In this document: positions 4,165 to 38,318 of the stretch, in pieces
Layout of the letters: each line of letters opens with the position of its first letter
Numbering within the stretch: position 1 is the stretch's first letter
IMG/VR virus record: IMGVR_UViG_3300046096_000464
Span: 1-64,000 of that record
From: a virus
Direction: 5' to 3' (one strand)
Length of the DNA: 64,000 nt
Notes under the pieces: generated by a model
The model's database searches: none
Seen by the model: the letters and a program-made list of their open reading frames with translations, nothing else
Told to the model about the DNA's origin: nothing
Made by a program: the position numbers and the translations under genes

Positions 4165-4185
4165 TCTCACTAAGTCTGTTATAAT
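4156..4185 (+). promoter_or_regulatory. Sigma70-like promoter
   Basis: TTGGCA at 4156-4161, an 18-base spacer and an extended -10 (TG-T-TATAAT, TATAAT at 4180-4185) lie just upstream of the 4214 gene. The same extended -10 recurs elsewhere in the window. Confidence 0.55.
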
Positions 4186-4213
4186 AAAAAGGAACAAAGC
4201 ATTACGACACAAA

Positions 4214-4582
4214 ATGAAATCGTTAGATCCAATTTTCAGCTTTTCCGATCATCCGTCATTAAAAGGCGACCCACGCAGCACGTTATATTGTTGCCCTGAT
4301 AGAAATAACCATATTAAATTCTACTATGCCAACTATGAAGAATTAGTAGAAATCGGATTGAGTAGTTTAGCTTATTGTAACATGGGCGAACCGTATCGAG
4401 TACTAGCCAGACTATATTTTATTAAATTTAATAATTGTCACAAAGAAACTATTAATATCTCAATGGAAGATGCAGTACGACTATACAAATATTTGCAAAA
4501 AATTAATATGATGGTATTAGTATCTAAAGATTTATTAACTGACAACACTTTTAAAAAATATTTAGAAGTATACGAAGATTAA
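4214..4582 (+). CDS. Hypothetical protein, 122 aa
   Basis: A cytosolic-looking alpha/beta protein of 122 residues with several aromatic residues and Cys (YCCPDRNNH near residue 26, LAYCNMG near 53). It has its own promoter and precedes the ribonucleotide reductase locus. No catalytic motif or known family is recognised. Confidence 0.65.
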   Translation: MKSLDPIFSFSDHPSLKGDPRSTLYCCPDRNNHIKFYYANYEELVEIGLSSLAYCNMGEPYRVLARLYFIKFNNCHKETINISMEDAVRLYKYLQKINMMVLVSKDLLTDNTFKKYLEVYED

Positions 4583-4611
4583 TTTTTAATTAAATACTTT
4601 ATATTATTAAG

Positions 4612-4656
4612 ATGATTCACTTTGATTATACAATCATCAGAAGACTAAATTTTTGA
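4612..4656 (+). pseudogene. N-terminal scrap of the HNH homing endonuclease family
   Basis: The short frame MIHFDYTIIRRLNF reproduces the family's conserved opening MIHF/MIHY plus the surrounding leader, then stops. The rest of the 104-base gap before nrdA shows no further gene. It is a footprint of a lost homing-endonuclease copy. Confidence 0.5.
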
Positions 4657-4686
4657 TTAAATATTAACCCACAACAGTAAAAAATA

Positions 4687-7600: not shown

Positions 7601-7827
7601 TCGAAAGATTATCTGATACTTATTGTCTTACCGAACCAAAAAGAAATAGAATGGTAATAAATGGGATTCTCTCTGGGCAATGTGTCGAAATCATCCAGCC
7701 AAGTCACCCAATATCCGATATCAATGATACTGGAATTCACGAACATACTGTAGCAGTTAAGAATAATAAATTAGACGAATTTATTAAGCTATCTCAAGAC
7801 AATGAGTTTCTTGAATTTCCTATCTAA
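4687..7827 (+). CDS. nrdA-a: Ribonucleotide reductase large subunit, N-terminal part, with two inteins
   Basis: 1046 residues. Residues 1-90 are an ATP-cone-like regulatory domain (MQVFKRDGSIEPLDLEKI). Extein sequence reads FSS|CALLDCDDS (first redox Cys, E. coli C225) and SNL|CVEIIQP (radical Cys, E. coli C439, with Asn and Glu neighbours). Intein 1 spans residues 222-641 and intein 2 residues 850-998; each lies immediately before a catalytic Cys. The frame stops at residue 1046, before the third active-site Cys (E. coli C462), which is in the next gene. Two splicing events and assembly with nrdA-b are therefore needed to reduce ribonucleoside diphosphates. Confidence 0.93.
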   Translation: MQVFKRDGSIEPLDLEKIHTMVFRACEGVDDVSPSLVVMNSKIQLTDGIATEYIQNLLVTSANNLITIEEPNYQYVAARLLLFGLYKSLYPQWKTFGLVHIYHHITRFKNKYDSILFDSYSKEDWDVLNEAIDHSKDYKFTYASLQQLIDKYLIQDRSTGFVYEIPQYAYMLIAATVFHDYPVETRLATVIDYYHAISDHEINLPTPIMSGVRTKQRNFSSCFPAGQLVHTSTGLKPIETISVGNMVLTHAGRMMSVLATNAKYFEQKYVAIDTYSTLNDQFVSTDDHLIFAAKDVGCIRGSEHRSCICSQGIYKYCEKYPRQYSEDCINLYKNDLFEPKWTPAKELDDNYWVHVAYNKSVVNTEYLIISDIIDIGSRYDINEEGLIHYKSYRSDIWYVPNKIYLNEELFRLIGYYLAEGHATDGGSMGFTFGNKDKYIIDDCVNIIQNVFGYTVIPSNNPYDNSTKVSICSKIITNLFIRLCSNKFDKKFICYELMNASIELQKQLLIGVIRGDGCAYSQGLQVGLSNKQLIYQLFDISLRLKLSPTINVQKYNDGIRQDVYTIYFPRSANYDFIMEVGKDVHKVNYTSKTYAYGIWKDDNYFTKIKSVKIINSIDDNIVYDLQIAGDESFVVSGLSVHNCALLDCDDSTLSISANNQATAMLTAASSGIGLNVGRMRSIGSSIRNGTVIHPGIVPFLKIFESTGKAFSQAARGGKLTCYYHIFGYEIETVIQLKNNRANEVSSVKHLDYCICISELFYKRFINNQNITLFCNSDTPGLYDAFGTPAFDKLYEYYEKKDGVRKKVVSMQKLFVDLMEQRSETARIYIMNVDHANTHSPYLDGVYMSNLCVAPETLLLTNKGYLPIGTLEDQSVTIWNGWEWSDTVVRKTGIDQKLINIKFQDDKGNIHNIECTEYHKFFIQSRNDVIEVRANDLIVGQYIQNWNPPEFLIDSDITLHQYHRDWWVYSTHNIERLSDTYCLTEPKRNRMVINGILSGQCVEIIQPSHPISDINDTGIHEHTVAVKNNKLDEFIKLSQDNEFLEFPI
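5350..6609 (+). other. Intein 1 of NrdA, 420 aa, with LAGLIDADG endonuclease
   Basis: Begins with Cys (CFPAGQLVHTSTGLKPIETI, intein block A) and ends VVSGLSVHN followed by Cys, the canonical His-Asn/Cys junction. Two dodecapeptide LAGLIDADG motifs are visible, LIGYYLAEGHA near residue 411 of the precursor and LIGVIRGDGCA near 508, so the homing endonuclease looks intact. Insertion is exactly before the redox-active Cys of NrdA. Confidence 0.93.
7234..7680 (+). other. Intein 2 of NrdA, 149-aa mini-intein ending in Gln
   Basis: Starts with Cys (CVAPETLLLTNKGYLPIGTL), has an EYHKF block-B-like His region and ends VINGILSGQ directly before the radical Cys of SNLC. At 149 residues it lacks an endonuclease. 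The last residue is Gln instead of the usual Asn, a variant reported for some inteins that changes the cyclisation step; here it abuts a catalytic Cys +1 residue. Confidence 0.85.
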
Positions 7828-9114: not shown

Positions 9115-9140
9115 AAATCCCACTAAATTTAGTGGGATTT
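9115..9140 (+). terminator. Hairpin between nrdA and nrdB
   Basis: AAATCCCACTAAA pairs perfectly with TTTAGTGGGATTT (13-bp stem, no loop bases needed beyond the centre). It lies after the nrdA tail and just before the AT palindrome at 9147-9164. Confidence 0.6.
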
Positions 9141-9146
9141 ATTAAA

Positions 9147-9164
9147 ATTATTAAATTTAATAAT
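9147..9164. repeat. AT palindrome ATTATTAAATTTAATAAT (reference copy)
   Basis: An 18-base perfect palindrome 3 bases before the nrdB ATG. Full or core copies occur at 13723-13739, 19267-19283, 26354-26367, 30077-30090, 30144-30155, 33627-33640, 35071-35084, 38431-38443, 38881-38894, 39153-39166, 44763-44779, 45211-45224, 47364-47377, 52836-52853, 55106-55121, 56547-56564, 58667-58682, 60365-60379 and 61934-61951. Many lie 2-10 bases before an ATG where no Shine-Dalgarno is obvious, others just after stop codons. Confidence 0.85.
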
Positions 9165-9167
9165 AAC

Positions 9168-11231
9168 ATGTCAGTAATAAATTTAGACAACTCAATCGAC
9201 TTCACGAAGCAAACTCAATTTTTCGATCAACAATTAAATTTACAACGATACGATAAGTATAGATATCCTCTGTTACATCAACTATACAAGACTCAAAAAT
9301 CATACTTTTGGAGTCCGACGGAGATAACATTACAGAAAGACAAAATAGACTATTCAAACTTGACCGAACAAGAAAAATTTATTTACACATCCAATTTAAA
9401 ATATCAAATTTTGTTAGATAGTGTGCAATCTAGAAGTACATTGTTAGCATTTTTGCCATTTGTATCTCTACCAGAATTAGAAAAAAATATAATTATTTGG
9501 GGATTTTTTGAGACTATTCATTCGGAATCATATACTCATATCATTGAGAATGTATATAATAAGCCATCTGAAATTTTTGATAATATTCTGAATATTCCAG
9601 AAATAGTAGAGCGAACCAAACAAGTCACTAAATATTATGATGAGTTTATTGATTTTTCTAGTAGTTGGAATACCTCTAGTATAAAGACATTATTAGTAGA
9701 CGGTAATGTTACCGCTAATCAAACATTATTAGAATTAAAACGTTCATTATATCTAGCTATAGTGAATGTGAATATCTTAGAAGGTATTAGATTTTATACA
9801 TCATTCGCTTGCTCATTTGCCTTTGCAGAAAATGCTAAAATGATTGGTTCTTCTGATATTATTAGTTTAATTGCCAGAGACGAAGCATGTTATACCACTG
9901 GACATGAAGCTTTGACGGATACTGGATGGAAACTAATTGAAGATATTACAAAAGAAGATAAAGTGGCACAATACACCAACAATAATGCAGTAGAATTTGT
10001 TCACCCCACTGCTATTATTAATAAACAATATATTGGTGATGTATATCAATTTATAGACGATTCCGGCAGAATTGAACAAATTGTTACTGCCGATCATCGA
10101 ATGGTGTGGCGTGAGTTATTTACAGGCAGAATGAAAGAATCGGTAGCAGCTACCACTAATTTTACATCAAGTAAGGCAATTGTGGTTAGTGGTATAGTTT
10201 TAGCAGGAGCAGTAGAATTAAGTCCTATAGAAATTTTAAATATATACACTGAATATTGTGGTACTGTTTTAGAAGTATTAGAACATAAATTAAAGGTGGA
10301 GTTTAATGTAAAAAATGAGACTAATTGGAGTAAATTGGGTAGATCTTTAGTTGCATTAGGAATTAGTTACGATTACTATATTACATATAAAACTGGAGTA
10401 TATACCATAACTTGCGAGATACCAACAGCTTCTTTACAAAAATATTTTAGTTGGGTGAATATCCAGGGTAAGTCTACATTATGGGCACAAAATTTAATAA
10501 ATTTATGTAGGGCGTTGAATGGTAACAAATCTTGTATGTCTTCCGTTCCTGGTAAGTTTAAATTTACTATCAATCATACTAAGAGTTTGAAAAAGTTACA
10601 ACAAGTGTTTGCTATTAGTAATTGGAAAATATATCATACTCACCCGTCAAAAAAATATGTTGGGTATAATATTAACGTATTGACTACTAGAAATTCTCAT
10701 ATTACTTCAAAAACAGAGAAGGTTAAACAAAATTATAGTGGCAAGGTTTATTGTTTATCTGTTCCTTCTGGTGCATTTTTTGTTAGATATAATGAAAAGG
10801 TTTCAGTTGGGGGCAATTGTCATACTCGACTTACTGAAACTATTATTAAGAATTGGCAAGCTGGTGAGGATAAAGATATTCTTAATATTATTAAAGAAGA
10901 AGAACAATTGGTATATACTATGTTTGATCTAGCAGTAGCGGCGGAAATAGAGTGGGCAGAATATCTTTTCAAAAATGGTAGTATATTGGGGTTGAATGTA
11001 GAACTATTATCACAATATATTAAATTTGTGGCGAATCGTAGACTTAAAGCGATCAATATGAAGCCACTGTATGACGATGTTTCTGTCAAGAATCCTTTGC
11101 CCTGGATCGATAATTATCTGAAGTCTTCTAATATAAGTGTCGCGCCACAAGAAACGGAGGTCTTATCATACCAAATTGGTAATATTGACAAAAATATAAG
11201 TGAAGGGCAATTCAGTAATTTTGAATTGTAA
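9168..11231 (+). CDS. nrdB: Ribonucleotide reductase small subunit with intein
   Basis: 687 residues from ATG 9168, placed just after the AT palindrome; an upstream in-frame GTG at 9132 lies in the terminator hairpin and is less likely. Di-iron ligands are visible: ETIHS (Glu, His), LEGIRFY (Glu) and ARDEA|CH (Glu, His). The tyrosyl-radical subunit would pair with the NrdA fragments. An intein occupies residues 241-550, between the Glu and His of the last ligand motif, so only spliced NrdB can bind iron. After it, CHTRLTETIIKNW to the FSNFEL C-terminus is normal extein. Confidence 0.93.
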   Translation: MSVINLDNSIDFTKQTQFFDQQLNLQRYDKYRYPLLHQLYKTQKSYFWSPTEITLQKDKIDYSNLTEQEKFIYTSNLKYQILLDSVQSRSTLLAFLPFVSLPELEKNIIIWGFFETIHSESYTHIIENVYNKPSEIFDNILNIPEIVERTKQVTKYYDEFIDFSSSWNTSSIKTLLVDGNVTANQTLLELKRSLYLAIVNVNILEGIRFYTSFACSFAFAENAKMIGSSDIISLIARDEACYTTGHEALTDTGWKLIEDITKEDKVAQYTNNNAVEFVHPTAIINKQYIGDVYQFIDDSGRIEQIVTADHRMVWRELFTGRMKESVAATTNFTSSKAIVVSGIVLAGAVELSPIEILNIYTEYCGTVLEVLEHKLKVEFNVKNETNWSKLGRSLVALGISYDYYITYKTGVYTITCEIPTASLQKYFSWVNIQGKSTLWAQNLINLCRALNGNKSCMSSVPGKFKFTINHTKSLKKLQQVFAISNWKIYHTHPSKKYVGYNINVLTTRNSHITSKTEKVKQNYSGKVYCLSVPSGAFFVRYNEKVSVGGNCHTRLTETIIKNWQAGEDKDILNIIKEEEQLVYTMFDLAVAAEIEWAEYLFKNGSILGLNVELLSQYIKFVANRRLKAINMKPLYDDVSVKNPLPWIDNYLKSSNISVAPQETEVLSYQIGNIDKNISEGQFSNFEL
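9888..10817 (+). other. NrdB intein, 310 aa
   Basis: Starts CYTTGHEALTDTGWKLIEDI, carries a block-B-like TADHRMVW, and ends YNEKVSVGGN followed by Cys-His of the extein. Its length exceeds a mini-intein by about 150 residues but no clear LAGLIDADG dodecapeptide is visible, so the endonuclease domain is divergent or decayed. Confidence 0.9.
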
Positions 11232-12998: not shown

Positions 12999-13358
12999 AT
13001 GAAGACCAGTTCTGGTAAGGCCAAGGGGCGTGGATTTCAGCAAGATATTAGGGATGTAATATTAGAAGCATTTCCCACACTAGAACCCGACGATGTGAAA
13101 TCTACAGGTATGGGACAACAGGGCGAAGATATACAACTCTCCCCCCAAGCCAGAAGACTTTTTCCCTATAGCATCGAAGCGAAGCGGCACGAAAAATTAT
13201 CAATACCTGCGTGGTGGAGACAGACTATCACCAATATCAAAGAAAATACTAATCCGGTATTGATCTTTAGACAGTCTAGACAGAAAGCATTGGTGGTAAT
13301 AACCTTAGATCATTTTATGGAATTAGTTAAAGAAAATTACGAACTAAAAAACAGATAA
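12999..13358 (+). CDS. PD-(D/E)XK-like nuclease, phage Holliday-junction-resolvase type
   Basis: 119 residues. GRGFQQDIRDVIL (helix with Gln/Asp), GEDIQLSPQARRLFPYSIEAKRHEK (Asp...Glu-x-Lys active site) and the AWWRQT segment match small phage endonucleases of the restriction-like fold. Such enzymes act on branched DNA or DNA ends; the exact substrate is inferred only from family. Basic N-terminus; no membrane segment. Confidence 0.7.
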   Translation: MKTSSGKAKGRGFQQDIRDVILEAFPTLEPDDVKSTGMGQQGEDIQLSPQARRLFPYSIEAKRHEKLSIPAWWRQTITNIKENTNPVLIFRQSRQKALVVITLDHFMELVKENYELKNR

Positions 13359-13387
13359 ATAAAGATATAACCACTCAATAAATCATT

Positions 13388-13639
13388 ATGTCAAGCAAAG
13401 CAGAAAAGATTGTTACTATTATCGAATATTATAAAATCAAATCAGAAACATTTCCAGCGACAGATGTAGAAGAAGTTGTTGAATTGCGTAAGCGCGTTGC
13501 CGAATTGGTGAAAGAGTCTGACGAAATCCAAGCAGTTATTGATAAATATAACAAAGAAGTAGTTGAGGTTCCAGTAGAAGTGGTAGAACCAGTCGCAGTA
13601 CCACCCAATCCTTATGTCATTAAATATCCAACATTGTAG
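13388..13639 (+). CDS. Small acidic hypothetical protein
   Basis: 83 residues: a helical N-terminal half with coiled-coil-like spacing (EEVVELRKRVAELVKESDEI), then a Val/Pro/Glu-rich stretch (VVEVPVEVVEPVAVPPNP). It follows the nuclease gene by 29 bases with an AAATAAAG spacer. Function unknown. Confidence 0.6.
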   Translation: MSSKAEKIVTIIEYYKIKSETFPATDVEEVVELRKRVAELVKESDEIQAVIDKYNKEVVEVPVEVVEPVAVPPNPYVIKYPTL

Positions 13640-13890
13640 TGATGATAATTAATTACAATGGGGGGGGGGGTAATATCATGCTCTAGCTATCACACATCCT
13701 TTGCGGAGGATGTTTAACGAATTTATTAAATTTAATAATGACCTTCTAATTGATTTTAGAAGGTCATTATTTTTATGATTTGACACTAGTACTCATATTT
13801 ATAGTTTTTGTGCGTTGTAGAGCATTTTAGCGATGTCTGGCAATACATTAATAACTGTGTTATAATGATTATATAGTTTATATTAATAAA
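13640..13890. repeat. Composite intergenic module, reverse copy, plus promoter
   Basis: Non-coding. In order: an 11-base G run (13660-13670), a CATCCT/AGGATG hairpin, an AT palindrome (13723-13739), terminator AATGACCTTCTAA/TTAGAAGGTCATT (13737-13768), a minus-strand TATAAATA box (13796-13803), the reverse module core (13811-13829), and a plus-strand promoter TGGCAA-17-TATAAT (13838-13866). It is the clearest complete copy of the module on the reverse strand. Confidence 0.75.
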
Positions 13891-13956
13891 ATGATTCATT
13901 ACGATCCTATAGTAAATTTATATCAGGTAACATGGGAAGCACCAATTAAATTTTAA
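13891..13956 (+). pseudogene. Internally deleted homing endonuclease, 21 codons
   Basis: The frame MIHYDPIVNLYQVTWEAPIKF joins the family's first ~12 residues (MIHY...NLYQ) directly to its last residues (TWDAPIMF). Promoter and leader match the intact copy at 35782. A single deletion has removed about 210 codons. The 42 bases that follow, before rnh, hold nothing recognisable. Confidence 0.7.
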
Positions 13957-13998
13957 TTTAATACTAGCCTAAATATTTGATACAAGCTGATTAAAATT

Positions 13999-14508
13999 AT
14001 GAGTATTTTATGCGATAGTAATCAATTTTTGATAGGAATCCTGATTAATCAACAACAATATGACACAATAGATGTAGATTATGTAAGAAATCAATATATT
14101 AATCGATTGCAGAATTATTCTGCACATTTCTATAATTATGGGTCAGTAATTTTATGTTTTGATAATAATAATTACTGGCGGAAGGACGTGTTTCCTTATT
14201 ATAAGTATAGTAGAAAGGAAGATCGGAAAAAATCGACAATCGACTGGTCAAAAATATTTAATGACATCAATATGATTAAACAGGCATTAAAAAATACTTC
14301 ATATTCCGTAATGGAAGTAGATGGTGCCGAAGCCGACGATATTATTGCAGTTATCTCAAAACACGAATATATTAATAATACTAGCACTATGATTATCTCT
14401 GGTGATAAAGATTTTGTCCAGTTATTAAAGTATCCAACAGTTAGTATTTATAATAGTCAGAAAAATATTTTATTAAAGGGAAAAATTTGTGAAAACCAAT
14501 TTTTATGA
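13999..14508 (+). CDS. rnh: RNase H / 5'-nuclease, N-terminal part (split rnh)
   Basis: 169 residues of the PIN-like half of T4 RNase H: MSILCDSNQF (first Asp), VILCFDNNNYWRKDVFPYYK, VDGAEADDIIA and TMIISGDKDFVQLL give the acidic metal-binding residues. The frame ends at 14508, just before the helix-three-turn-helix half, which continues in another frame from 14489. In T4 the enzyme removes RNA primers and gp32-guided flaps. Here activity needs two polypeptides, a frameshift, or correction of a sequencing error. Confidence 0.85.
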   Translation: MSILCDSNQFLIGILINQQQYDTIDVDYVRNQYINRLQNYSAHFYNYGSVILCFDNNNYWRKDVFPYYKYSRKEDRKKSTIDWSKIFNDINMIKQALKNTSYSVMEVDGAEADDIIAVISKHEYINNTSTMIISGDKDFVQLLKYPTVSIYNSQKNILLKGKICENQFL

Positions 14509-26376: not shown

Positions 26377-27102
26377 ATGAAACTCCCACAAATTGCATAC
26401 CAGACTTACGAGATGACCTCCGCTATCTCTAAAAATAAAATTAAATATCGTCCATTTTTGACTGGGGAAGAAAAAATATTATATTTAGCACAAAAAACTG
26501 GAGATAATAAACAGATCAAAGATGCGGTGATTCAAGTTTTGAATAATTGTATCATCACCCCAGGAGTGATTGCGGAAGAATTGTCTGTATTTGATTTGGA
26601 GAAACTGTTGTTATCGGTTCGGGCAAAGGCTGTTGGTGAAGTAATTGATGTACAGATTCCCTGCGATTTAGAACCAGAGGATAATGGTCAACCAGTATAT
26701 GTGCCAGTTAAGATCAACATCGAAGATATCCTAGTACATATTCCCCCAGATCATACAAATAAAATAGAAGTTAATGAAAATACTACATTAGTGATGAAAT
26801 ATCCAGGGTTGGATGATTTTTTGTTGGATAACTTTATTGATGAAGATAGTCAAAAAAATATGTTTGAAATTACCTTATTGTGCTTGGATAAATTAGTAGT
26901 AGGAGATGAGATATATGATTTTAATGATGCGTCTGATGACGATTTGAATGGATTTTTAGACAGTATGCCAACTAAAATATTTGATAAAATTACTAACTTT
27001 TTCACCAACCCGCCGAAATTATATCATGATGTAGTTGTTTATCACCCTGTTTCGGGCAATATTACAAAATTGCGTTTAGAGGGTATACAAGCTTTTTTTT
27101 AA
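26377..27102 (+). CDS. 26: Baseplate hub assembly protein (gp26-like)
   Basis: 241 residues. KYRPFLTGEEKILYLAQKTGDNKQIKDAVIQVLNNCI and EKLLLSVRAKAVGEVIDVQIPC identify the T4_baseplate (gp26) family, a chaperone-like factor for the hub. Its 3' end runs over eight consecutive T residues into a stop (27100-27102). A -1 shift there would add 61 codons ending at 27284, which is gp51-like; see the next entry. The AT palindrome at 26354-26367 stands 10 bases before the ATG. Confidence 0.85.
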   Translation: MKLPQIAYQTYEMTSAISKNKIKYRPFLTGEEKILYLAQKTGDNKQIKDAVIQVLNNCIITPGVIAEELSVFDLEKLLLSVRAKAVGEVIDVQIPCDLEPEDNGQPVYVPVKINIEDILVHIPPDHTNKIEVNENTTLVMKYPGLDDFLLDNFIDEDSQKNMFEITLLCLDKLVVGDEIYDFNDASDDDLNGFLDSMPTKIFDKITNFFTNPPKLYHDVVVYHPVSGNITKLRLEGIQAFF

Positions 27103-27284
27103 TCGCATTTGGTTATAATAGTTTAGAAAATATTTTCCAGAGAAATTTTGATTTGTTATATATACATAAAATCTCAGCGGAATTTGTTGAATTTAGTGTC
27201 CCTTGGGAATTAGATGTCCATATGCAGAGGATCGCACAATATCAAGATGACCTAAAATATCAAAGAGATACTGCTAATAATTAA
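27099..27284 (+). CDS. 51: gp51-like extension reached by -1 frameshift
   Basis: In the -1 frame from the T8 tract the reading is LIAFGYNSLENIFQRNFDLL... to QYQDDLKYQRDTANN, 61 codons with no usable internal ATG or ribosome-binding site near the start. In T4, gp26 is followed by gp51. The arrangement recalls programmed frameshifts in tail-assembly chaperones (lambda gpG/gpGT type). A simple -1 indel or sequencing error in the T run is the alternative. Confidence 0.65.
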   Translation, partial: LIAFGYNSLENIFQRNFDLLYIHKISAEFVEFSVPWELDVHMQRIAQYQDDLKYQRDTANN

Positions 27285-27374: not shown

Positions 27375-30074
27375 CTAGACGAAAATACTGTCCGTAACAT
27401 CTCCACGTATACTAGATATTGCCGTGAATCTGTGCAAATCAGAGGAAAAATTGAAATTTGCGGTGGAATACACAGTTTTATTAGCAGTATTGATGACATC
27501 ACCTCCGATGATTGTATTGCTGTTTATTGGATTCGCAGATAGCGTAGGGAGTGGAGTAACTTTAGGGACAGTTTTGTATGGTGTATTGGGTGTTGAAAGT
27601 GGGGTAACTTTAGGGACAGGGTTATATGATGGAGAATTGAATGTGGGGGGGGTTGGGACTGGTGTATATACTGGGGATATATTTTTTAATTTAGTGCTCT
27701 TTTTCTTACCACTGCCACTATTAGGAGTCATACTTTTCTTGCCAGTACCACTGCTATCTGGATTATCCATTATAGTTTCCATATTTACATTAGGTAGTGG
27801 AGTTACTTTCGGAACAGGATTATATCCACTGGGAGTATCTTTGTATGTTAATTTGTTTTGTTCTGGAATAGGTTCTATATCTTTACCTTTACCTAACCCC
27901 AACATTTGTGTAAGAGTAGTAAATGCCCCACCTACTTTTCCATAATCAATATTGCGTGTAGTAGCTACTGGAGCAACAGGAGTAGGAGTAGTATTTGTAG
28001 GATTTGTAGTAGGGGTACCGAGAGCAGTATTATTATTATTATCTAATAATCTTACGGCTTGGGCAAATTTTAATACTTCGCCATTTTTGCCATTACTGCC
28101 ACTAGTTCCTGTATTTATTCTGGTTCCAACTTTTTTACTATGGTGCCAATATCTCCCATCTCCCAAATATATGCCAACGTGGGTTATTTCTCCATCATTT
28201 TTTATTCCATTTATACCAGCATAGGTATCTTTCCACTGAACAATATCCCCACGTTTTATTTTAGCTTTATCATATATTATCTGATTTGGGGCACCAAAAC
28301 TGTTTGCTCTTGCCGGATTAGTTTGTTTTCCTATACCCGTAAGGGCAAAATCTGCTGGAGTATCTGTTATTCCCATATCAATATTTAATTTTTTTCCTAT
28401 ATTTCTGACGGAATTTGCACATTGTACTGGTATGCCTTTATATAATCCTAAAGTTTTTTCCGCAGTACTAGCAATTTTTTCATTTATATCAGATACTACC
28501 CCCCCCTTACTATATCCATTTACCCCCATACTTCCATCAGTTTCTAATACATTACTCGCCATATTAGGTACATCATATCCCTTATCAATAGCTTCCTTTA
28601 TCCTAATACTGGTTAAATTTTTATTGGTCTTGGTGGCTGGAGTATCATATGGAATTACAAAACTACTGTCATTGGTTTTATGCTTACTCACGTATTCGCT
28701 ACCATGTCCAATAAAACTAGTACTTTTGCCCCCATTTAATGATACCGGATATCCATTATAACTACCACTAATCCAACCACTACCTTTACCAGATACACTA
28801 CCACCAATAGACTTAGTGGGTAATGGTGTGTCACTTGGAATTTTACTAATAAAGGCATTTAATATATCTGCTAATAATCCTCTAACTGTTGTGTCATTAG
28901 AACTTTGGAATGTACCTTCTCCGCCTACACTATCTATATTGGGATTAGATGTACCTATTATCTTATCTAAACTGTGATTATTGTTTGTAGATGGACTGAT
29001 TTTTCCTAGGTGCAGTTCAGTTTTTGTATCTCCTATGGGAACATCAAACATCTTCCCTATGCTATTGATTAGTGGAAATAATGTGTTACTAGAATCTGGA
29101 TTGTCTTTCATGGAAGATTTCAATATACCAACAATGCTACTTCCTATAATAGAAAATGGCAATTTCATTAAATCATGAAATTTTGGTGCGATGCTTTTTA
29201 TATCCTTATTAAAAGTTTCATTATTAGTGACTCCAGTTAATAATGAATTTAATGGTTTAATATTATTTTTTTGTGATGTATTTTCTACCACTCCACCTTT
29301 GGCGAGTTTTGGTAAATTTGGATTTATATCTTTTTTAGTGGAGTCGGGGTTAGTTAGATTAACTAATGATTGTGGTTGAACTGGTGTTTCTGGTACAGTT
29401 GGTTGACTAAAAATTTCTGGGTTTGGTTCAGATTTTTGTGTTGGTGCTAGATCAGTTACACCTTGTTTTATCGTTTTGTTCGCAGCTTCTACTGATTTTT
29501 CTGCAACACCACCTAAATTTTTATTGATTCCTTCTAATAATCCATTAAACGCTTTACTTATAGTTTTTGGTGTGTCTGTTATTATCTTACCAATGCTATA
29601 TAAAGGAGAAACCAATACTTTAATAAATCCGACTGTACCATTAAAAAAATCTCCAAATACTTTACCAAGCTTGAGTAGATTAGATATACTACCTCCTACC
29701 CACCAAAACACCCCATCAACAAAATTTAATATAAACTTGCCGATGTTATAAAATCCCTTCAGGATATTAGCTAGTTTTTTTGTATTTTTTGGATTTGCGA
29801 CCCATTCTGCAATTTTATATGCCGCAAATAGTGTTCCAATTTTTCCGATAAAGTTTAGGAAGTCACTAATTATCCCTCCCGATTTTTTTGATTCTCTGTC
29901 GTACTTTGTGTTGTACGTTTGTTTTGCAATATTTTCTTCTTTTTCTGCGGTTTTGCTTTGGTATTTTTCCTTTTTTTTATTTCTGTATTCGTAATCTTTT
30001 TGTTCAAGTGATATTAGTTTATCAATATTTTTATTTAATTTTTCTATCTGTGGTATACTGATGTTAATGGACAT
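27375..30074 (-). CDS. Tape-measure-like tail protein with CHAP/NlpC-type hydrolase
   Basis: 899 residues. Residues 1-70 are charged helix; 70-190 hydrophobic, tape-measure-like (FLNFIGKIGTLFAAYKIAEWV); 200-540 low-complexity with KLAKGGVVEN. Residues ~545-665 form a Cys-His amidase-type domain: PVQCANSVRNIG supplies Cys and ITHVGIYLGDGRYWHH the His. The C-terminal 150 residues hold repeats of YNPVPKVTPLP and then VIGGDVI. It shares its N-terminal layout and a NIDYGKVGGAFTTLTQMLG segment with the divergent gene at 30159, so they are paralogues. A minus-strand TATAAATA box at 30102-30109 fits late expression. Confidence 0.8.
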   Translation of the reverse strand: MSINISIPQIEKLNKNIDKLISLEQKDYEYRNKKKEKYQSKTAEKEENIAKQTYNTKYDRESKKSGGIISDFLNFIGKIGTLFAAYKIAEWVANPKNTKKLANILKGFYNIGKFILNFVDGVFWWVGGSISNLLKLGKVFGDFFNGTVGFIKVLVSPLYSIGKIITDTPKTISKAFNGLLEGINKNLGGVAEKSVEAANKTIKQGVTDLAPTQKSEPNPEIFSQPTVPETPVQPQSLVNLTNPDSTKKDINPNLPKLAKGGVVENTSQKNNIKPLNSLLTGVTNNETFNKDIKSIAPKFHDLMKLPFSIIGSSIVGILKSSMKDNPDSSNTLFPLINSIGKMFDVPIGDTKTELHLGKISPSTNNNHSLDKIIGTSNPNIDSVGGEGTFQSSNDTTVRGLLADILNAFISKIPSDTPLPTKSIGGSVSGKGSGWISGSYNGYPVSLNGGKSTSFIGHGSEYVSKHKTNDSSFVIPYDTPATKTNKNLTSIRIKEAIDKGYDVPNMASNVLETDGSMGVNGYSKGGVVSDINEKIASTAEKTLGLYKGIPVQCANSVRNIGKKLNIDMGITDTPADFALTGIGKQTNPARANSFGAPNQIIYDKAKIKRGDIVQWKDTYAGINGIKNDGEITHVGIYLGDGRYWHHSKKVGTRINTGTSGSNGKNGEVLKFAQAVRLLDNNNNTALGTPTTNPTNTTPTPVAPVATTRNIDYGKVGGAFTTLTQMLGLGKGKDIEPIPEQNKLTYKDTPSGYNPVPKVTPLPNVNMETIMDNPDSSGTGKKSMTPNSGSGKKKSTKLKNISPVYTPVPTPPTFNSPSYNPVPKVTPLSTPNTPYKTVPKVTPLPTLSANPINSNTIIGGDVINTANKTVYSTANFNFSSDLHRFTAISSIRGDVTDSIFV

Positions 30075-30158
30075 TTTATTAAATTTAATAATTTATACCA
30101 ATATTTATAATAATAGTCTATTTTCTAAATATTGATATCAAGCATTAAATTTAATAAA
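30075..30158. promoter_or_regulatory. Divergent promoter region of the two tape-measure-like genes
   Basis: 84 bases carrying two AT palindromes (30077-30090 and 30144-30155), each next to a start codon, and a minus-strand late box at 30102-30109. The symmetry suggests the two giant genes are co-ordinately expressed. Confidence 0.5.
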
Positions 30159-33017
30159 ATGTTATTTTCCGCAATCAATACAAAATTTGATAGATTAGTC
30201 AAGATCAAAGAAAAACAAATAAAATTAAATCTATATCGACAAGAAAAATATCAGATAGAGCAAGAAGAACAAAAAAAAGTAGTAACTATAACAAAGATAA
30301 AGCGAAATGGATTCAGAGAATCATTATTAGATAAAATAATTAAATTTGGTGTGATGTATGGTGCAGTTAAAGTCGCACAATTTGTAGCAGACAAGAAAAA
30401 TATTGGAACAGTTGCAGGAATATTGAAAACAGCTAAGGGGTTGTTTGATGTAGCAACCGCAGTGGGAGAATTTGGTGCGGGGAATTTGATGGATGGATTA
30501 AGCAAAGTAGCAGGTGATAAAACAATATTAGCTAAATTTTCTGGAGGTATACAGGCGGCAGTAGGATTTATCTCACTCAGATGGTTAATAAACCCATTCA
30601 AAATAATTAGTGATATCAAATCTTTACCTTCTTTGTTAGGTAAAGTTAATCGTGCTGCTAAATTTTTGAGTATGAGTTTATCGGATTTAGCAAGTTGGTC
30701 AAAAATATTTGTCAAAGGATTGTTTAAAGGTATAGATCAATTTTTTAGTAGAGCAATATTAAAGGTATTTGGTAAACCAATTTGGAGTTATTTGCGTAGA
30801 TTGGTGAATGGATTATATAAAACTGTGGGAGGAGCAGTAGGTGGTGTGATTGGTAAAGCAAGTGCTGGAGTTGGGCAATTAGCAAGTAAATTTATACCTA
30901 AAGCAGTAATCCGAGCAGCCGGATCATTTTTAACTAAAATTCCAATAGTAGGTTCATTATTAGGATTCGGGATAAATTTAATATTGGGAGATCCCATACA
31001 AAAAGCCGCATTTAAACTAGGAACATCTACAGCAGGTGCAGCATTAGGTGGAGCAGTGGGGTTAGCATTTCCTCCAGCAATACCATTTACCGCAGCTATA
31101 GGTGGATTTTTGGGGGATTGGTTAGGCGATACATTGTATGATAAATTTATCCCACCAAAGTTAGCATTAGGTGGTGTGGTATCCCATACTTCTAAGAAAG
31201 GGACTCATGTAATCGTAGCAGAAAATGAGGATGAGGTAGTTATTCCACTATCAATGCTGACAATGAATAATGATATTGGTGCTAAATTATTTGAACCGAT
31301 TAAACTAGTTGCATCAAATATTTTGGGTGCTATTGATTCGGTAATTGATAAAAATGACACTATATATGGTAATATAAGTTCTGATATTACTAATTCTTTA
31401 GTAACATTGACAAATACATTTGGTTCTGCTACAGTAGTTAGTAAGTCTATAACCTCACCATATATCGATACAAATAATAATGAAGTAAATAATTCAAAAT
31501 CAACTAACACAAATTCAGACATATTTGGTACAGAAAATATAAACCAAGTTTCTCAATCAGACACATTAAGTACTATAAATAATAATACCAGTGTCAGAGG
31601 ATTATTACGTTCAATATTGGATGTAATGGTAAATACTGATGCTATAGGAGGAAATTTTATGAATATTAGTCCGGCTGGTGGTATTACTCCACCTCCAGCA
31701 ATAGTCCAAAGTTATTCGGCTAGTGCAGATGTACCAGGTACATTAATTGCTACTGGTAGAGCAACATATTATGATCCATATGACCCCACCGATAAAACTT
31801 CTGGAGGGAAAAAATTATCTACGGGGGGGTATTATAGTCGTACGGAATTTGAGGGTGCCGTATTCCCAGATCTCATATTGAGATTACCAGAAAGATATAC
31901 TGCGCGTACCAATGAACGACCAGCATATTTTAGAGGTAAGACTATCAAAAAGCCTTTTATGGTTAAATTGGTACATAAGAAAACTGGTAAACAGGCGTAT
32001 GTTAAGATAAACGATGTCGGTATTGGTAAGAAGGGAGATACTAGTAGACTAATTGACATGAATAGTACCACCAAACAATATTTTGGTGGAGATAGTGGGG
32101 GGATAGAAGTATATTTGGCACCAGATGATGCTAAACCTGGTGCATTACCAGATCTGCCAAAATTTGAACAAGGTGGAGAATATGTATATAATGAATTACC
32201 ACATAAAAGATGGGCGGGAAAAAGGCGCGCAGGGAGAAAACATGCAGGCGAAGATATTGCTATGCGTACCGATGGAACATTCCAGAGTTTTGTTGGTGGT
32301 AAAGTGATGTTCAAGGGATTCCAAGCTGGTAAGAATAAATATGGTCATTATATCGATATATATAATGACAAATTGAAGGTTACAGAAAGAATCGCAGAAG
32401 CTGGTCAATTTTTTGTGAAGCCAGGAGATTTAGTAAAACCTGGACAAATAGTATCTACTGGGACAAGTACTGGGATGATCCACTACGAAATAAGACCAAC
32501 TCCAAAATACACTATTCCACAATATTATTTTGCAGGCACCGTCGATCCAGTAAAATATCTACAATCTGTTGGGGCATTGACAATTGCTAGTAACACTATT
32601 AAAAATAATGGTCTACAGTCTTTATTGGATGGGACTACCCTTACTGCTAACATGGATAGTAGTACTGTTATGGCTACTCCTGGTGCGACTGCTTCTACTG
32701 CCAACATGGATAGTAGTACTGTTATGGCTACTCCTGGTGCGACTACTTCTACTGCTGCTACGGCACCAAAGCCGATCCCAATTGACTATAGTAAGATCGG
32801 CAAAGCATTTACCGATCTTACGCAAATGCTGGGGGTGAATAGTACTCAGCAGGTAGCCGCACAACCGAAGGCAAACAACAAATCTACCACTGCCAATAAA
32901 AACCTGATTAACAATATTAATTTGATCAGATCTGGCAACAGTGCTAATGTGATCACGGTGGAACAGAAAATAATTACACCCACTAAACAACCGGACGCGC
33001 GATTAAGAAGTCTTTAG
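30159..33017 (+). CDS. Tape-measure-like tail protein with RlpA-like and M23-like domains
   Basis: 952 residues from ATG 30159 (just after an AT palindrome; an upstream TTG at 30132 is less likely). Residues 1-60 charged helix; 60-330 hydrophobic and Gly/Ala-rich; LALGGVVSHTSKKGTHVIVAENEDEVVIPLSML near 336 is a classic tape-measure motif. GRATYYDPYDPTD...VKINDVG...RLIDM near 530-640 is an RlpA-like double-psi barrel. Residues ~690-785 are an M23 peptidase-like domain (KHAGEDIAM, YGHYIDIY, TSTGMIHYEIR); the first His of the usual HxH is Met, so catalysis is doubtful. Two tandem ANMDSSTVMATPGAT repeats precede the C-terminal IDYSKIGKAFTDLTQMLG, shared with the divergent paralogue. Confidence 0.8.
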   Translation: MLFSAINTKFDRLVKIKEKQIKLNLYRQEKYQIEQEEQKKVVTITKIKRNGFRESLLDKIIKFGVMYGAVKVAQFVADKKNIGTVAGILKTAKGLFDVATAVGEFGAGNLMDGLSKVAGDKTILAKFSGGIQAAVGFISLRWLINPFKIISDIKSLPSLLGKVNRAAKFLSMSLSDLASWSKIFVKGLFKGIDQFFSRAILKVFGKPIWSYLRRLVNGLYKTVGGAVGGVIGKASAGVGQLASKFIPKAVIRAAGSFLTKIPIVGSLLGFGINLILGDPIQKAAFKLGTSTAGAALGGAVGLAFPPAIPFTAAIGGFLGDWLGDTLYDKFIPPKLALGGVVSHTSKKGTHVIVAENEDEVVIPLSMLTMNNDIGAKLFEPIKLVASNILGAIDSVIDKNDTIYGNISSDITNSLVTLTNTFGSATVVSKSITSPYIDTNNNEVNNSKSTNTNSDIFGTENINQVSQSDTLSTINNNTSVRGLLRSILDVMVNTDAIGGNFMNISPAGGITPPPAIVQSYSASADVPGTLIATGRATYYDPYDPTDKTSGGKKLSTGGYYSRTEFEGAVFPDLILRLPERYTARTNERPAYFRGKTIKKPFMVKLVHKKTGKQAYVKINDVGIGKKGDTSRLIDMNSTTKQYFGGDSGGIEVYLAPDDAKPGALPDLPKFEQGGEYVYNELPHKRWAGKRRAGRKHAGEDIAMRTDGTFQSFVGGKVMFKGFQAGKNKYGHYIDIYNDKLKVTERIAEAGQFFVKPGDLVKPGQIVSTGTSTGMIHYEIRPTPKYTIPQYYFAGTVDPVKYLQSVGALTIASNTIKNNGLQSLLDGTTLTANMDSSTVMATPGATASTANMDSSTVMATPGATTSTAATAPKPIPIDYSKIGKAFTDLTQMLGVNSTQQVAAQPKANNKSTTANKNLINNINLIRSGNSANVITVEQKIITPTKQPDARLRSL

Positions 33018-33048: not shown

Positions 33049-33417
33049 ATGGAGAAAGTAAATCGAAACAATACCCACATGAAGACCATTAAATATCAGC
33101 AACTCGTTAGTGCCCATATCGATTATCTAGATTCAAATGTATATGATGTAGCACCAGAACTACTTTTTTCATTCAAACCAAAAATGAAAAAAGTAACTTG
33201 CAATATGTATGTTCAAAAATTCCCAGAACAAGATGATATGTTTAAATCTTATCAAATAGTGGTATCTGGTGAGATTATTATGGGAACTAAGAATTGGTTA
33301 GAAAAATACCCATCTAGCAGTTATTTTTTAGAATTGCATGTATTACCAGAATACAATGATAAAATTCAATGTGATTTTGATGATAATGAGGAGGAACTAA
33401 AGACAGAAATAGTGTAG
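33049..33417 (+). CDS. Hypothetical protein, 122 aa
   Basis: 122 residues (an internal ATG at 33079 is an alternative start). Beta-rich middle and a strongly acidic C-terminus (DFDDNEEELKTE). It follows the giant tail gene by 31 bases and ends at a terminator, so it is the last gene of that unit. Possibly a tail-assembly accessory; family not recognised. Confidence 0.6.
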   Translation: MEKVNRNNTHMKTIKYQQLVSAHIDYLDSNVYDVAPELLFSFKPKMKKVTCNMYVQKFPEQDDMFKSYQIVVSGEIIMGTKNWLEKYPSSSYFLELHVLPEYNDKIQCDFDDNEEELKTEIV

Positions 33418-33642: not shown

Positions 33643-34971
33643 ATGCAGTTTGTTGGGGATTACTCATTAACCAATGTATTTTTATCAAACAAAGATAAAA
33701 TAATAGATATCAAGGAGATGATCGCAGAGATCAATATATATGAGTCGGTCAATAGTGTAGCTATCAGTGCAGATCTTACTATATCTGATAATAAGAATAT
33801 ATTAGAATCATTTCCTATAGTTGGTGGGGAATTTATTACTATATATGTTGGTACAAATAATGACAAATATGTATTAGATTTTGTAATATATAAAATAGAT
33901 TCAAAAGTAATCTCAGAAAAAAGTCAAGTATACATTTTACGACTTTGTACTAAGGATACCATCACTAATGAAACTAGTAGGTTTAGTAGAAGATTCAAGA
34001 ATAAATTTAGTGATGAGGTGACTAAAGACCTACTAAAAAATTATATTAAAACTACTAAAAAGATTGATGTTGACCAAACCATTTACCCACTAAATTTTGT
34101 ATCACCTAATTGGCGGGTGTTCGATCTTATTACTTGGATGGCTAGGAAAAGTACAAGTATAAAGAATGTTCAATCTGCTGGATACCTTTTTTATGAAGGA
34201 CTTGATTCTTACCACTACAAAAGTATAGATAATTTGTTTGCTCAAACAAGTAAGAATGAGAACATACCATTTACTTATGTTCCTGCAAAAACAAGTACGG
34301 ATGCTGATAAAAACTATAGAATCGTTAAATATGTGAGCGATTCATATTTTGATGTATTAGAACAATCCAGGATGGGGGCACTGTCCCATTTTAATGAGCG
34401 AATAGATTTTACTAGTAGAACCAAAACTCTTACAAAAAGTACACTTAGTAGTATTTGGAAACACCAATCACACTTAGGTGGTGGTAATATTCCAGCACAG
34501 ATAAACAATTTATTATTTGCTAATCCGTCAAGAGTAATATATACTCCAATAATTAATCAATTGTTTGGTGAATCTATTGTGTATGACGGAGACGACGATA
34601 AAATTAATAAGCTAATAAATCGCAGTGTATATAGATATACATCGATGGATTTCTTTACTATTAATATTGAGATCGCTGGTAATTTGGGTATTAGAGCGGG
34701 TGCTGTTTACACACTGAATATCCCTTCCCCCAACCCAGATTCAAATGCCAACAGGAATAGACAAACAGATAATGATCTTAGTGGCAATTGGATGTGCCAC
34801 AGCATAAAGACATCAATAAACCGTACTTCTACTACCAGTATAGTAAGATTATGTAGGGACAGTGTAGGTGGAACAAAAATTCCTATTATAGGTACTTCTG
34901 CTAAAAGTATTAATAATGTAGATAGAAGTATTATTGATACTGATATTAGGGAACTTAAAAATATAGTCTGA
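33643..34971 (+). CDS. 27: Baseplate central hub protein (gp27-like)
   Basis: 442 residues. IIDIKEMIAEINIYESVNSVAISADLTISDNKNILESFPIVGGE and FVSPNWRVFDLITWMARKS...AGYLFYEG are conserved in gp27 hubs of T4-type phages. gp27 forms a trimeric torus that receives gp5 and links to the tail tube. gp5 is the next structural gene, though a homing endonuclease lies between them. The ATG directly follows an AT palindrome. Confidence 0.87.
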   Translation: MQFVGDYSLTNVFLSNKDKIIDIKEMIAEINIYESVNSVAISADLTISDNKNILESFPIVGGEFITIYVGTNNDKYVLDFVIYKIDSKVISEKSQVYILRLCTKDTITNETSRFSRRFKNKFSDEVTKDLLKNYIKTTKKIDVDQTIYPLNFVSPNWRVFDLITWMARKSTSIKNVQSAGYLFYEGLDSYHYKSIDNLFAQTSKNENIPFTYVPAKTSTDADKNYRIVKYVSDSYFDVLEQSRMGALSHFNERIDFTSRTKTLTKSTLSSIWKHQSHLGGGNIPAQINNLLFANPSRVIYTPIINQLFGESIVYDGDDDKINKLINRSVYRYTSMDFFTINIEIAGNLGIRAGAVYTLNIPSPNPDSNANRNRQTDNDLSGNWMCHSIKTSINRTSTTSIVRLCRDSVGGTKIPIIGTSAKSINNVDRSIIDTDIRELKNIV

Positions 34972-35086: not shown

Positions 35087-35782
35087 TTAGAACATAATAG
35101 GTTTATCCCAAGTAAGCTGATTTTCTATGTGTGTAGCAATTAATTGGTCTAGTTTTATCTGATGTTCTGGTTTGAATTGAATGGTAGAATCTGGCAACCA
35201 ATTGTGAACTTCTTTGAGGTATCGTTCTGGACTGACTAATCCAGATTTTACTCCAAACTGATAATGCAAGTTCTGGAGATAATTCATATCTTCAGAACCA
35301 AAATTTATTCTCTCACTATTTCTAGGCATATGAATTTGTGTTCTATAGCTACTACTACCATTATTATATATTGCACCAATAGGTAGTCCAGATGACTTCT
35401 TTCGTAATACTGTATTAAACCAATTAGTAACTACTTCTAAATTAGTAAGTTTATTATTACTAGGATCGCCATCTATATGATTAATTACATAGTTATTATT
35501 AGTCTTGACTCCAAATACTAATTCATGAATATATGTAGTTTGTCCATCTTTATGAGTATGAAATCTACCTCCACTATCAGGATTAAAATTATATAGTTTT
35601 AACAATTCTACTTTATCAAGATCTATAGAATTAGTATATAATTTACCAGATTTAGTATTGAGTAGATGTAATAGATCATCTACAAATAATTGATTATATG
35701 TAAGTTTTTGATTACTTTTATTGAGATTATGGTGAGGTTGATCGAATTGATAGAGATTTAAAATTTTACAGAAATGAATCAT
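35087..35782 (-). CDS. HNH homing endonuclease, intact family member
   Basis: 231 residues. HNH core: YVINHIDGDPSNNKLTNLEVVTNWFN (His, Asn, His-like residues). The N-terminal 70 residues (MIHFCKIL...FDQPHHNLNKSN) and C-terminal DNA-recognition half (YLQNLHYQFGVKSGLVSPERYLKEV, TWDKPIMF) define a family with decayed copies throughout the window. It sits antisense between gp27 and gp5, within the baseplate cluster. Its promoter is at 35809-35814 (minus-strand TGTGTTATAAT). Confidence 0.85.
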   Translation of the reverse strand: MIHFCKILNLYQFDQPHHNLNKSNQKLTYNQLFVDDLLHLLNTKSGKLYTNSIDLDKVELLKLYNFNPDSGGRFHTHKDGQTTYIHELVFGVKTNNNYVINHIDGDPSNNKLTNLEVVTNWFNTVLRKKSSGLPIGAIYNNGSSSYRTQIHMPRNSERINFGSEDMNYLQNLHYQFGVKSGLVSPERYLKEVHNWLPDSTIQFKPEHQIKLDQLIATHIENQLTWDKPIMF

Positions 35783-35858: not shown

Positions 35859-38318
35859 ATGAATCCCAACTTCAATCACACAAATAACTTAACCCAAAGC
35901 AACTTTTTCTATGGCGTAATCGAAAGTACATCTGATGCCAGTGGGTTGCATAGAGTAAAAGTAAGGATCGTCGGTGTACATAGCGATGATAGAAAAATGT
36001 TACCTACTGAGGATCTACAGTGGAGTTTAGTCGCCAACAGTACAAACTCCACCGGAAAGCATACACTTAAACCAGGGAATTTTGTTGTATGCACATTTCT
36101 TGATGCAGATATGCAACAAGCTATTGTGCTATTTTCATTATTAAGTAAAATCAAACAAAAGGGGGTAGTACTGAACAGTATTCAAGATGCCCAAACCCCA
36201 GGGGGAGTATTCATAAACTACAATTCTCCGCCATCGCCATCTACAGATAGCGATCAATCTATATATACAGGAACTATACCAGTAGAAACAATAGCCAAAT
36301 CTCAAGATGGGGCAAATATAGGTAATCCGTTCGGCAAGAACACCCAAGCAATCGCAGCTAATGGTAAAAATGGTGGTACAGGAATGTTTGCCGATATCGA
36401 ACGAGAAATCATCTCGTTGGGTAATATATTCAAACACGTAGTGTTGTATGATACTGACGACATTACCTTATCCGCAGACATAGATAGCGAAATAGGTATC
36501 ATACCACTGAGTAGAGTAAACAACATTCCAAAATCAGGAATTATAAAAATCGGCGACGAAATAATCACTTATTCTGGTATAGCTGATACAGGATTGTCAG
36601 GGCAAATATTGAGAGGAAGTCCAGATAGAAATAGTATAATATCTACCAAAAAAGCAGAACATAAAGCTGGAGACATAGTAACTTGGATATACCCAAAAGT
36701 AAAGAACGACAAAGCACCATTATTTTATAGTCAACTCACCGGACAAGCTATAGATTTCGCCAAAGAGATCAAAAAAAGGATGTCAGTAGTCAATGGATAC
36801 ATTACATGGTTAGTAAATAAAATTTCTAGTCAGATTGTATCTACATTAAGTGAATTAATTGCTGGCATAACATTAGCACTCAAAACTCCTACTGCATTGA
36901 TTGGTAAGATCATAGTAGATGCACTACTATTGGTTCTATCTCAAGTATTATGTTCTTTTGATAAGGCAACTGTTGACTCATTAGTACTATCAATAGAGCA
37001 ATATATTACAGATCAAGTAACTACATTAATTAGGAGTTTTTATGAAAATGCCACAGCTATTCAACAGTTCATCAGTGATTGTACTAATAAAATATTTGAT
37101 GCCGTATTACAATTTGCTAGTATTATTCAATCTATTGGCAACCTAATTACAAATATTACAAGGATATTCCCTGGTGCTAGTGGCGAAGCTATTAAGGTAA
37201 TCGACACTAATTCAGAACCGGATACTTTGAATAAGGATAAGGTAAATGGTATATCATTTCCGGATCTAACCAATACTGCAAATATCGTAGCAAAATTATT
37301 AAATTTTTTAGGATTGGGTTGTAAGCAAGAAGTTGGGGAAAATATTAATGTTCCTGAATGTGTGACTACTGGATATTTCCCACCAGCTAATTTATGCGAT
37401 CCTAATCCTGACCTTATATCAGCACTGAATAATTTGTGGCGACCTTTACCTCAGTTTATCACTAATTATGACTTTGGTGGTGGTCTGAAGGCTGAGTATG
37501 ACGGTACGCCAGGGGTAGAGAGGACGTTATTGTCATCTCCTGCGGGTACTTATACAGAAGTGTTCAATGATGGAACTAGTCGCACAGTAATTTCCAAAGA
37601 TTCGTATACACTCATTTTGAATGATAACAATATCGAGATAAAAGGCAATTGCAATTGGAAAGTTGATGGTAATTTCGGTTTAAAAGTATCTGGGAATCTA
37701 GATTTGGAGGTTGGTAAAGAATTACGAATGTCTATCGGTGGTAGTAGCAAGATTACATATGGCGGTTCACATAATACAATTTACGGTGGGGACAGTGTGA
37801 TAAATGCGACAAATAAGTTGAATATAACTGGAAGTCAAATTGGGTTAGTTGCTTCTGGTGTAGTAGACATCAAAGGTGGAGTATTCGATGTACTTACCAG
37901 TGAGATCAATCTTACATCATCTGGTAGTTTGAGTTTGATTTCATTGCATAGTAATTTTGTTAGTGGGGTATCGCATAAGGAGATACATAGCGGAACCGTA
38001 GATAAACTTGTGGTTGGTTCGCAGAAAAAGATTAATCTTGGTAGTTACGTTGGTGACGCTATAGGAAATCATCAAACTAATTATATGAGTACTAAGACCT
38101 CTAACGTGGCAGGAATTCATACAATTACTAACAATTCTTTGTACACCATTAGTAGTAATATTAAAACAGAAAAAGTAGAGCAATTAAGTACATTTAATAC
38201 AAAAGTACTACAAATTAACGCAAATAATAAAATTGAGACAATCAACGGTAGTAGTCTTAACTATGCAAATGGCTTGGCATTGCGTCAAACTAGTGGGGGT
38301 ATAAACATGGATTCCTGA
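35859..38318 (+). CDS. 5: Baseplate hub / tail spike protein (gp5-like)
   Basis: 819 residues. Residues ~15-100 are the gp5/VgrG OB-fold (FFYGVIESTSDASGLHRVKVRIVGVHS, LKPGNFVVCTFLD). The middle is hydrophobic and helical (270-400). The C-terminal 250 residues are a repetitive beta-helix needle (NCNWKVDGNFGLKVSGNLDL, NIEIKG, KITYGGSHNTIYGG). T4 gp5 carries a lysozyme domain between these parts; none is visible here, and wall-cleaving domains are instead in the two tape-measure-like proteins. Pairs with gp27. Confidence 0.85.
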   Translation: MNPNFNHTNNLTQSNFFYGVIESTSDASGLHRVKVRIVGVHSDDRKMLPTEDLQWSLVANSTNSTGKHTLKPGNFVVCTFLDADMQQAIVLFSLLSKIKQKGVVLNSIQDAQTPGGVFINYNSPPSPSTDSDQSIYTGTIPVETIAKSQDGANIGNPFGKNTQAIAANGKNGGTGMFADIEREIISLGNIFKHVVLYDTDDITLSADIDSEIGIIPLSRVNNIPKSGIIKIGDEIITYSGIADTGLSGQILRGSPDRNSIISTKKAEHKAGDIVTWIYPKVKNDKAPLFYSQLTGQAIDFAKEIKKRMSVVNGYITWLVNKISSQIVSTLSELIAGITLALKTPTALIGKIIVDALLLVLSQVLCSFDKATVDSLVLSIEQYITDQVTTLIRSFYENATAIQQFISDCTNKIFDAVLQFASIIQSIGNLITNITRIFPGASGEAIKVIDTNSEPDTLNKDKVNGISFPDLTNTANIVAKLLNFLGLGCKQEVGENINVPECVTTGYFPPANLCDPNPDLISALNNLWRPLPQFITNYDFGGGLKAEYDGTPGVERTLLSSPAGTYTEVFNDGTSRTVISKDSYTLILNDNNIEIKGNCNWKVDGNFGLKVSGNLDLEVGKELRMSIGGSSKITYGGSHNTIYGGDSVINATNKLNITGSQIGLVASGVVDIKGGVFDVLTSEINLTSSGSLSLISLHSNFVSGVSHKEIHSGTVDKLVVGSQKKINLGSYVGDAIGNHQTNYMSTKTSNVAGIHTITNNSLYTISSNIKTEKVEQLSTFNTKVLQINANNKIETINGSSLNYANGLALRQTSGGINMDS

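Follow-up and report, generated by a model that had tools for sequence, protein, structure and literature searches.

Kyanoviridae-type phages rank with the most abundant phages of the ocean; their tape measure carries no clear annotation, and the genes at the locus considered here are filed as endolysins. Two large, divergent genes in a 64,000-nucleotide stretch of viral DNA (positions 1 to 64,000 of IMG/VR record IMGVR_UViG_3300046096_000464; hereafter the window) raise the question of what this pair of proteins does. An earlier note, made from the sequence alone, had described two tape-measure-like paralogues of about 900 residues on opposite strands, sharing their N-terminal architecture, glycine motifs and a C-terminal LTQMLG element, and carrying different wall hydrolases. 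Here we follow that description through paralogy, gene order, enzymatic domains and protein length.

Paralogy and family of the two proteins

The two genes, which we call N (27375–30074, minus strand, 899 aa from an ATG) and M (30159–33017, plus strand, 952 aa), diverge from an 84-base gap at 30075–30158. The longest plus-strand reading frame for M opens at a TTG at 30132; we judged the ATG at 30159 the better start, giving 952 aa. BLASTP aligns N with M in three collinear matches, at the N-terminus (E 3e-10), in the middle around GGVV/NNTSVRGLL (E 1e-6), and at the C-terminus around IDYxKxGxAFxxLTQMLG (E 8e-6), and profile-profile alignment of the N-termini of the M and N families gives E 2.4e-27 over 204 columns. 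M and N are true paralogues, as the earlier note had it, and the shared architecture that it described is what these matches trace.

N runs from a helical, tape-like N-terminus through a conserved block and an NlpC/P60-type domain to the C-terminal LTQMLG element that it has in common with M (27894–27950, minus strand, IDYGKVGGAFTTLTQMLGL). M has a helical N-terminus, a hydrophobic segment at residues 257–276, a tape-measure-type glycine motif of the form GGVV...EDEVVIPL (31155–31253, plus strand, residues 333–365, LALGGVVSHTSKKGTHVIVAENEDEVVIPLSML; aligned with GGLVTKPTQALIGEKGPEAVIPL of S-CREM1), DPBB and M23 domains, and its own copy of the C-terminal element (32781–32837, plus strand, IDYSKIGKAFTDLTQMLGV). 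The block of N (28554–28802, minus strand, residues 425–507, GWISGxxxGYPVSLxGG...FIGHGxEYV...FVIPFDTPATK) is near-invariant in 36 of 36 relatives. Structure prediction, proposed by the earlier note as a check, was informative in this block, which AlphaFold models confidently as beta-rich (pLDDT above 90 at about residues 460–500), but not for the whole proteins, whose models (mean pLDDT 50–52) are too weak for fold assignment; Foldseek searches with them matched convincingly only cyanophage homologues, and a search by sequence for a solved homologue of the core found none.

N matches phrog_1200 (E 3e-50) and phrog_2588 (E 4e-38), and M matches phrog_17500 (E 6e-11) and phrog_2588 (E 2e-9); these families, named "endolysin" or unknown, occur in Kyanoviridae cyanophages. 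A search of viral contigs with P0002 alone gave no match, and a search with the family alignment found 468. The "endolysin" pairs of Kyanoviridae (PHROGs 1200, 2588, 790 and 17778), such as S-CREM2 ORF208/209, S-SM1 SSM1_015/016 and S-P4 gp190/191, belong to the same families as M and N, and likewise consist of two paralogues with exchangeable hydrolases between gp51 and a gp27-like gene. The window differs from them in that N is inverted and precedes M, and in its set of hydrolases (NlpC/P60-type, DPBB and a degenerate M23). M and N are ancient sister proteins, present as a pair in most T4-like marine relatives.

Gene order, inversion and promoters

To the left of the pair lie the T4-type tail genes gp53, gp48, gp4, gp2, tail tube and gp26, and to its right a gp27-like gene and gp5. 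The immediate left neighbours are a gp26-like baseplate hub gene (26377–27102, plus strand, phrog_150) and, between it and N, a small gp51-like gene (27114–27284 with a tentative start codon, plus strand; tblastn E 2e-4 with S-SM1 gp51); the right neighbour is a gp27-like baseplate hub gene (33643–34971, plus strand, phrog_350 E 2e-94), whose phiM12 homologue is annotated as an HHpred hit to gp27, followed by a gp5-like spike without a lysozyme domain (35859–38318, plus strand). The pair thereby occupies its usual position in Kyanoviridae, between gp26-gp51 and the gp27-like gene.

The usual order in Kyanoviridae-type T4-like phages is gp26-gp51-M-N-gp27-like-...-gp5, all on one strand. Profile searches on 80 IMG/VR loci, which were selected by the N block and are not all independent, found both genes in 76: 71 in the order M-N, four in the order N-M (L071, L073, L101, L102), and a single locus in which N is turned round, L023, whose contig is also that of the metagenomic relative L009. 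The pair is thus in tandem in 75 of these 76 loci, again not all independent. In the window N precedes M and is inverted, gp51 keeping its place on the plus strand; the one-strand layout, which is usual without defining the proteins, is absent here, and the inversion is found only in the window and L009. Because the gp27 tree groups these two with L071, one inversion event, affecting N in an ancestor with the N-M order, is enough to account for the arrangement. The divergent arrangement, which the earlier note had treated as a defining feature, is a minor local variant of a family-wide tandem pair, and on account of its rarity we reject a functional role for divergence as such.

The 84 bases between the genes (30075–30158) hold two divergent T4-type late promoters with their leaders. 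N is preceded by TATAAATA at -35 and M by CTAAATAT at -34, each followed by the leader ATTAAATTTAATAAAATG. The matching palindromes reported earlier in a shared promoter are real as a dyad of 92 bp, which matches itself at 72 of 92 positions against 36.6 +/- 6.2 in shuffles, but the promoters are two and their elements ordinary: the same promoter and leader stand 5' of other late genes, for example at 33643 and 45229 in the window, and also in other parts of the record. The dyad consists of a late promoter with its leader, of the kind usual in this phage, present twice and facing outwards; we reject a shared palindromic operator on these grounds, and N has a promoter of its own because an inverted gene needs one.

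Several neighbouring features are recorded here as observations. A 122-aa reading frame without a PHROG match lies between M and the gp27-like gene (33049–33417), and in the relatives viewed the gp27-like gene follows the pair directly, with no such intervening frame. A free-standing HNH endonuclease gene (35087–35782, minus strand) sits between the gp27-like gene and gp5, and in L009 two mutually similar reading frames (10146–10841 and 13295–14029) flank gp5. Both ribonucleotide reductase subunits of the window (4687–7827 and 9132–11231) carry internal insertions of about 400 and 310 aa that split their PHROG matches and look like inteins. In the 109-kb fragment that forms the phage's record, psbA gave no match, and gp23 gave none in a search run without a working control.

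Virion presence in relatives and exchangeable wall-hydrolase domains

The orthologues are structural proteins. In S-CREM2, ORF208 and ORF209, annotated "endolysin" and lying directly 5' of the gp27-like gene, yielded 73 and 71 unique peptides (PMC10665884, Table 3). From that table we calculate 0.047 and 0.049 unique peptides per residue, close to the hub proteins (gp27-like ORF210, 0.059; spike ORF211, 0.049) and well under the value for the sheath (0.32); such counts are a rough guide only to copy number, and the level of the pair is low and hub-like. Both pair genes of S-SCSM1 are likewise annotated as virion proteins from mass spectrometry (method in PMC9602691). The earlier note had named absence from virions as evidence against its reading; in both of these relatives both partners are present. 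Judged from homology, M and N are very likely tail proteins with murein-hydrolase modules.

The module of N is a putative cysteine hydrolase of NlpC/P60 or CHAP type (28104–28475, minus strand, residues 534–657), with catalytic Cys552 and His632 present; its Pfam match (E 8e-4, 19.8 bits) falls below the cut-off of 23, and the same domain occurs in pair members of S-CREM1 and S-CREM2. NlpC/P60 and CHAP share one fold superfamily, so the Cys/His, CHAP-like domain of the earlier note is recovered, by way of a weak match. At the equivalent place the N homologue of L009, the nearest relative (3505–5898, minus strand), has by eye a YkuD-like H...GC motif, a recent exchange of enzyme.

M carries a DPBB/RlpA-like domain (31755–32123, plus strand, residues about 533–655, with Asp619 in KINDVG), in which the M proteins of the window and L009 are 37–39% identical by BLAST to the second gene of Synechococcus phage RB11-B, itself a weak match to Pfam DPBB_1. 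Behind it lies an M23-type domain (32238–32501, plus strand, residues 694–781; Pfam 30.7 bits, cut-off 28.7) that keeps the zinc ligands His695, Asp699 and His775. Met773 replaces the first His of its HxH motif, and there is no second catalytic His; in alignment with the intact domain of RB11-B, both catalytic histidines are missing from the window and from L009 and present in RB11-B. Since both are missing, the M23 domain of M may bind without cutting and may be inactive as an enzyme. The RlpA-like and M23-like domains noticed earlier are thus there, but a hydrolase role for the latter is doubtful.

Across 35–36 relatives the enzymes vary widely around a constant core: M23, VanY/M15, tail lysozyme, GH19 and C39/CHAP in M; amidase, SLT, glucosaminidase, lysozyme, M23, M15 and NlpC in N. 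No Pfam lysozyme was matched among the gp5 proteins scanned in this group, that of the window at 35859–38318 included. Phage_lysozyme (PF00959) matches T4 gp5 and T4 lysozyme; in three cyanophages, S-SM1, S-CREM2 and S-N03, it lies in the second pair member and not in gp5. From this placement wall cutting appears to have moved from gp5 to the pair, in agreement with what had been proposed from the lack of lysozyme in the window's gp5.

Tail length and the tape-measure reading

The locus itself points to a tape measure: HTVC008M and phiM12 each have one annotated tape measure at the same place, after gp26-gp51. Those proteins differ from the pair in being encoded by one gene, preceded by a small gene, with no hydrolase domain noted, and BLAST found no similarity between them and M or N. 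The T4 gp29 profile (phrog_1283) recovers T4 itself at E 3e-252 and found no homologue in the record of the window, nor in the complete genomes of S-CREM1, S-SM1, S-CREM2, S-N03 and HTVC008M. T4 gp29 and gp5 nevertheless occupy a corresponding position among the tail genes, and would serve like functions (length control and wall cutting at the gp27/gp5 hub), although T4 has one gene in place of two, no detectable gp29 homology to the pair, and its lysozyme in gp5. The tape-measure model phrog_167 matched 10 of 35 M and 10 of 36 N proteins; because it also matched 14 of 14 control genomes, we count such matches as weak evidence and set this one aside as proof of identity.

The lengths of M and N covary across 44 non-redundant phages (r 0.85, permutation p 5e-5), and do so in independent contrasts (r 0.85; 0.78 without S-CREM2 and P-SSM2); neither length correlates positively with that of gp27 in the 44 phages. 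By contrasts, M length correlates with the segment of N that precedes the conserved block (r 0.45) and with the segment that follows it (r 0.49, less robust to dropping the strongest contrasts). Partners within one phage are also more alike than between phages, at the N-terminus (p 2e-4) and at the C-terminus (p 0.03), as would be seen if the two were in contact or shared a binding partner; this points to co-evolution or gene conversion.

S-CREM2, with the longest known cyanomyovirus tail, has a tail of 418 nm and a pair of 1565 and 1456 aa, against 138 nm with 933 and 722 aa in S-N03 and 129 nm with 936 and 735 aa in S-H34, both relatives in its cluster. The segment added to S-CREM2 ORF209 (L106, 9185–13555) consists of some 25 repeat units of 13 residues, a Phe being fixed in each; tandem repeats with Phe or Trp at fixed positions are frequent in tape measures (PMC3271669). 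Summed pair length correlates with tail length over six phages with published tail lengths (r 0.97; 0.72 without S-CREM2, which dominates), and the slope exceeds what a single helix could give. The tail of S-CREM2 is 280 nm longer than that of S-N03, its pair proteins only 632 or 734 residues longer each; as an alpha-helix rises about 0.15 nm per residue, this is far too little for one tape, and the lengthening fits only a pair in series or chains almost fully extended. One other candidate, the giant virion protein ORF124 of S-CREM2, would come near 418 nm at that rise with its 2668 aa; it is ruled out by position and size, since a structural protein of 2476 aa sits at the corresponding place in S-N03, whose tail measures 138 nm (the two equated by position and size, without alignment).

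In our judgement it is fairly likely that M and N, products of a duplication, form a pair of tail tape measures with wall-cutting domains in T4-like phages of the Kyanoviridae type. The helical N-terminal part of each would occupy the tail tube, seated on the gp27/gp5 hub, and the two would set tube length between them; their C-terminal parts would be exchangeable murein-cutting domains that reach the cell wall when the tail contracts and act in place of the T4 gp5 lysozyme. In the window's phage N has been inverted and has a late promoter of its own, which adjoins that of M in the opposite orientation. The tape-measure character proposed by the earlier note gains from locus, length covariation and the virion presence of relatives. 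Whether two paralogues, assembled in parallel or end to end in one tube, jointly fix its length as a two-component tape measure is nearly an even call. Tape measures with murein hydrolase domains are found in mycobacteriophage TM4 and in T5 (pb2). Enterococcal phages have them too (PMC10194240). All of these combine tape and wall hydrolase in one polypeptide, as M and N would, but they are single tape measures; here there are two paralogues with different enzymes and lengths that change together.

It is unlikely that only one partner is the tape measure and the other a paralogue turned lysin cargo, bound to hub or lumen, with no part in length. S-CRM01 has a single 864-aa gene in place of the pair (L109, 9410–12004), similar to both partners of S-N03, so that the pair is not essential; this may be a single-copy state, and it favours a lone tape, as do the single tape measures of HTVC008M and phiM12 and the length of S-CREM2, which neither protein supplies in a simple helical way. 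But with phylogeny allowed for, the partners' lengths still change together, S-CREM2 has longer versions of both, and its virion contains the two at equal, hub-like levels. We find it less probable again that neither protein is a tape measure, both being tail-tip peptidoglycan hydrolases in a tail whose length an unrelated protein sets. No other tape candidate emerged, ORF124 apparently being the S-N03 2476-aa protein, and in P-SSM2 both genes persist as short forms (529 and 516 aa) in which PHROG matched no hydrolase, so that the core seems functional without enzymes; the diversity of hydrolase domains, the database name and the shortfall of S-CREM2 at 0.15 nm per residue weigh the other way.

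That M and N serve host lysis late in infection as genuine endolysins, the role under which PHROGs and GenBank records annotate them, is very improbable: their relatives are virion proteins in S-CREM2 and S-SCSM1, the genes lie within the baseplate-hub operon, about 400–500 non-enzymatic, largely helical residues precede the enzyme, and S-CREM1 encodes a lysozyme domain in another reading frame, of 401 aa, elsewhere. Contrary to the database label, M and N are probably joint tape measures and wall drills.

If this is right, the tape measure of T4-like marine phages would have a name, and their breach of the cell wall without a gp5 lysozyme would be explained; they would also offer a case of tail length seemingly set by two covarying paralogues, with S-CREM2 against S-N03 and S-H34 making the question of length directly testable. 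Were the two-component arrangement to hold, each partner's wall-cutting head could be exchanged independently, and wall specificity could change without touching the spike.
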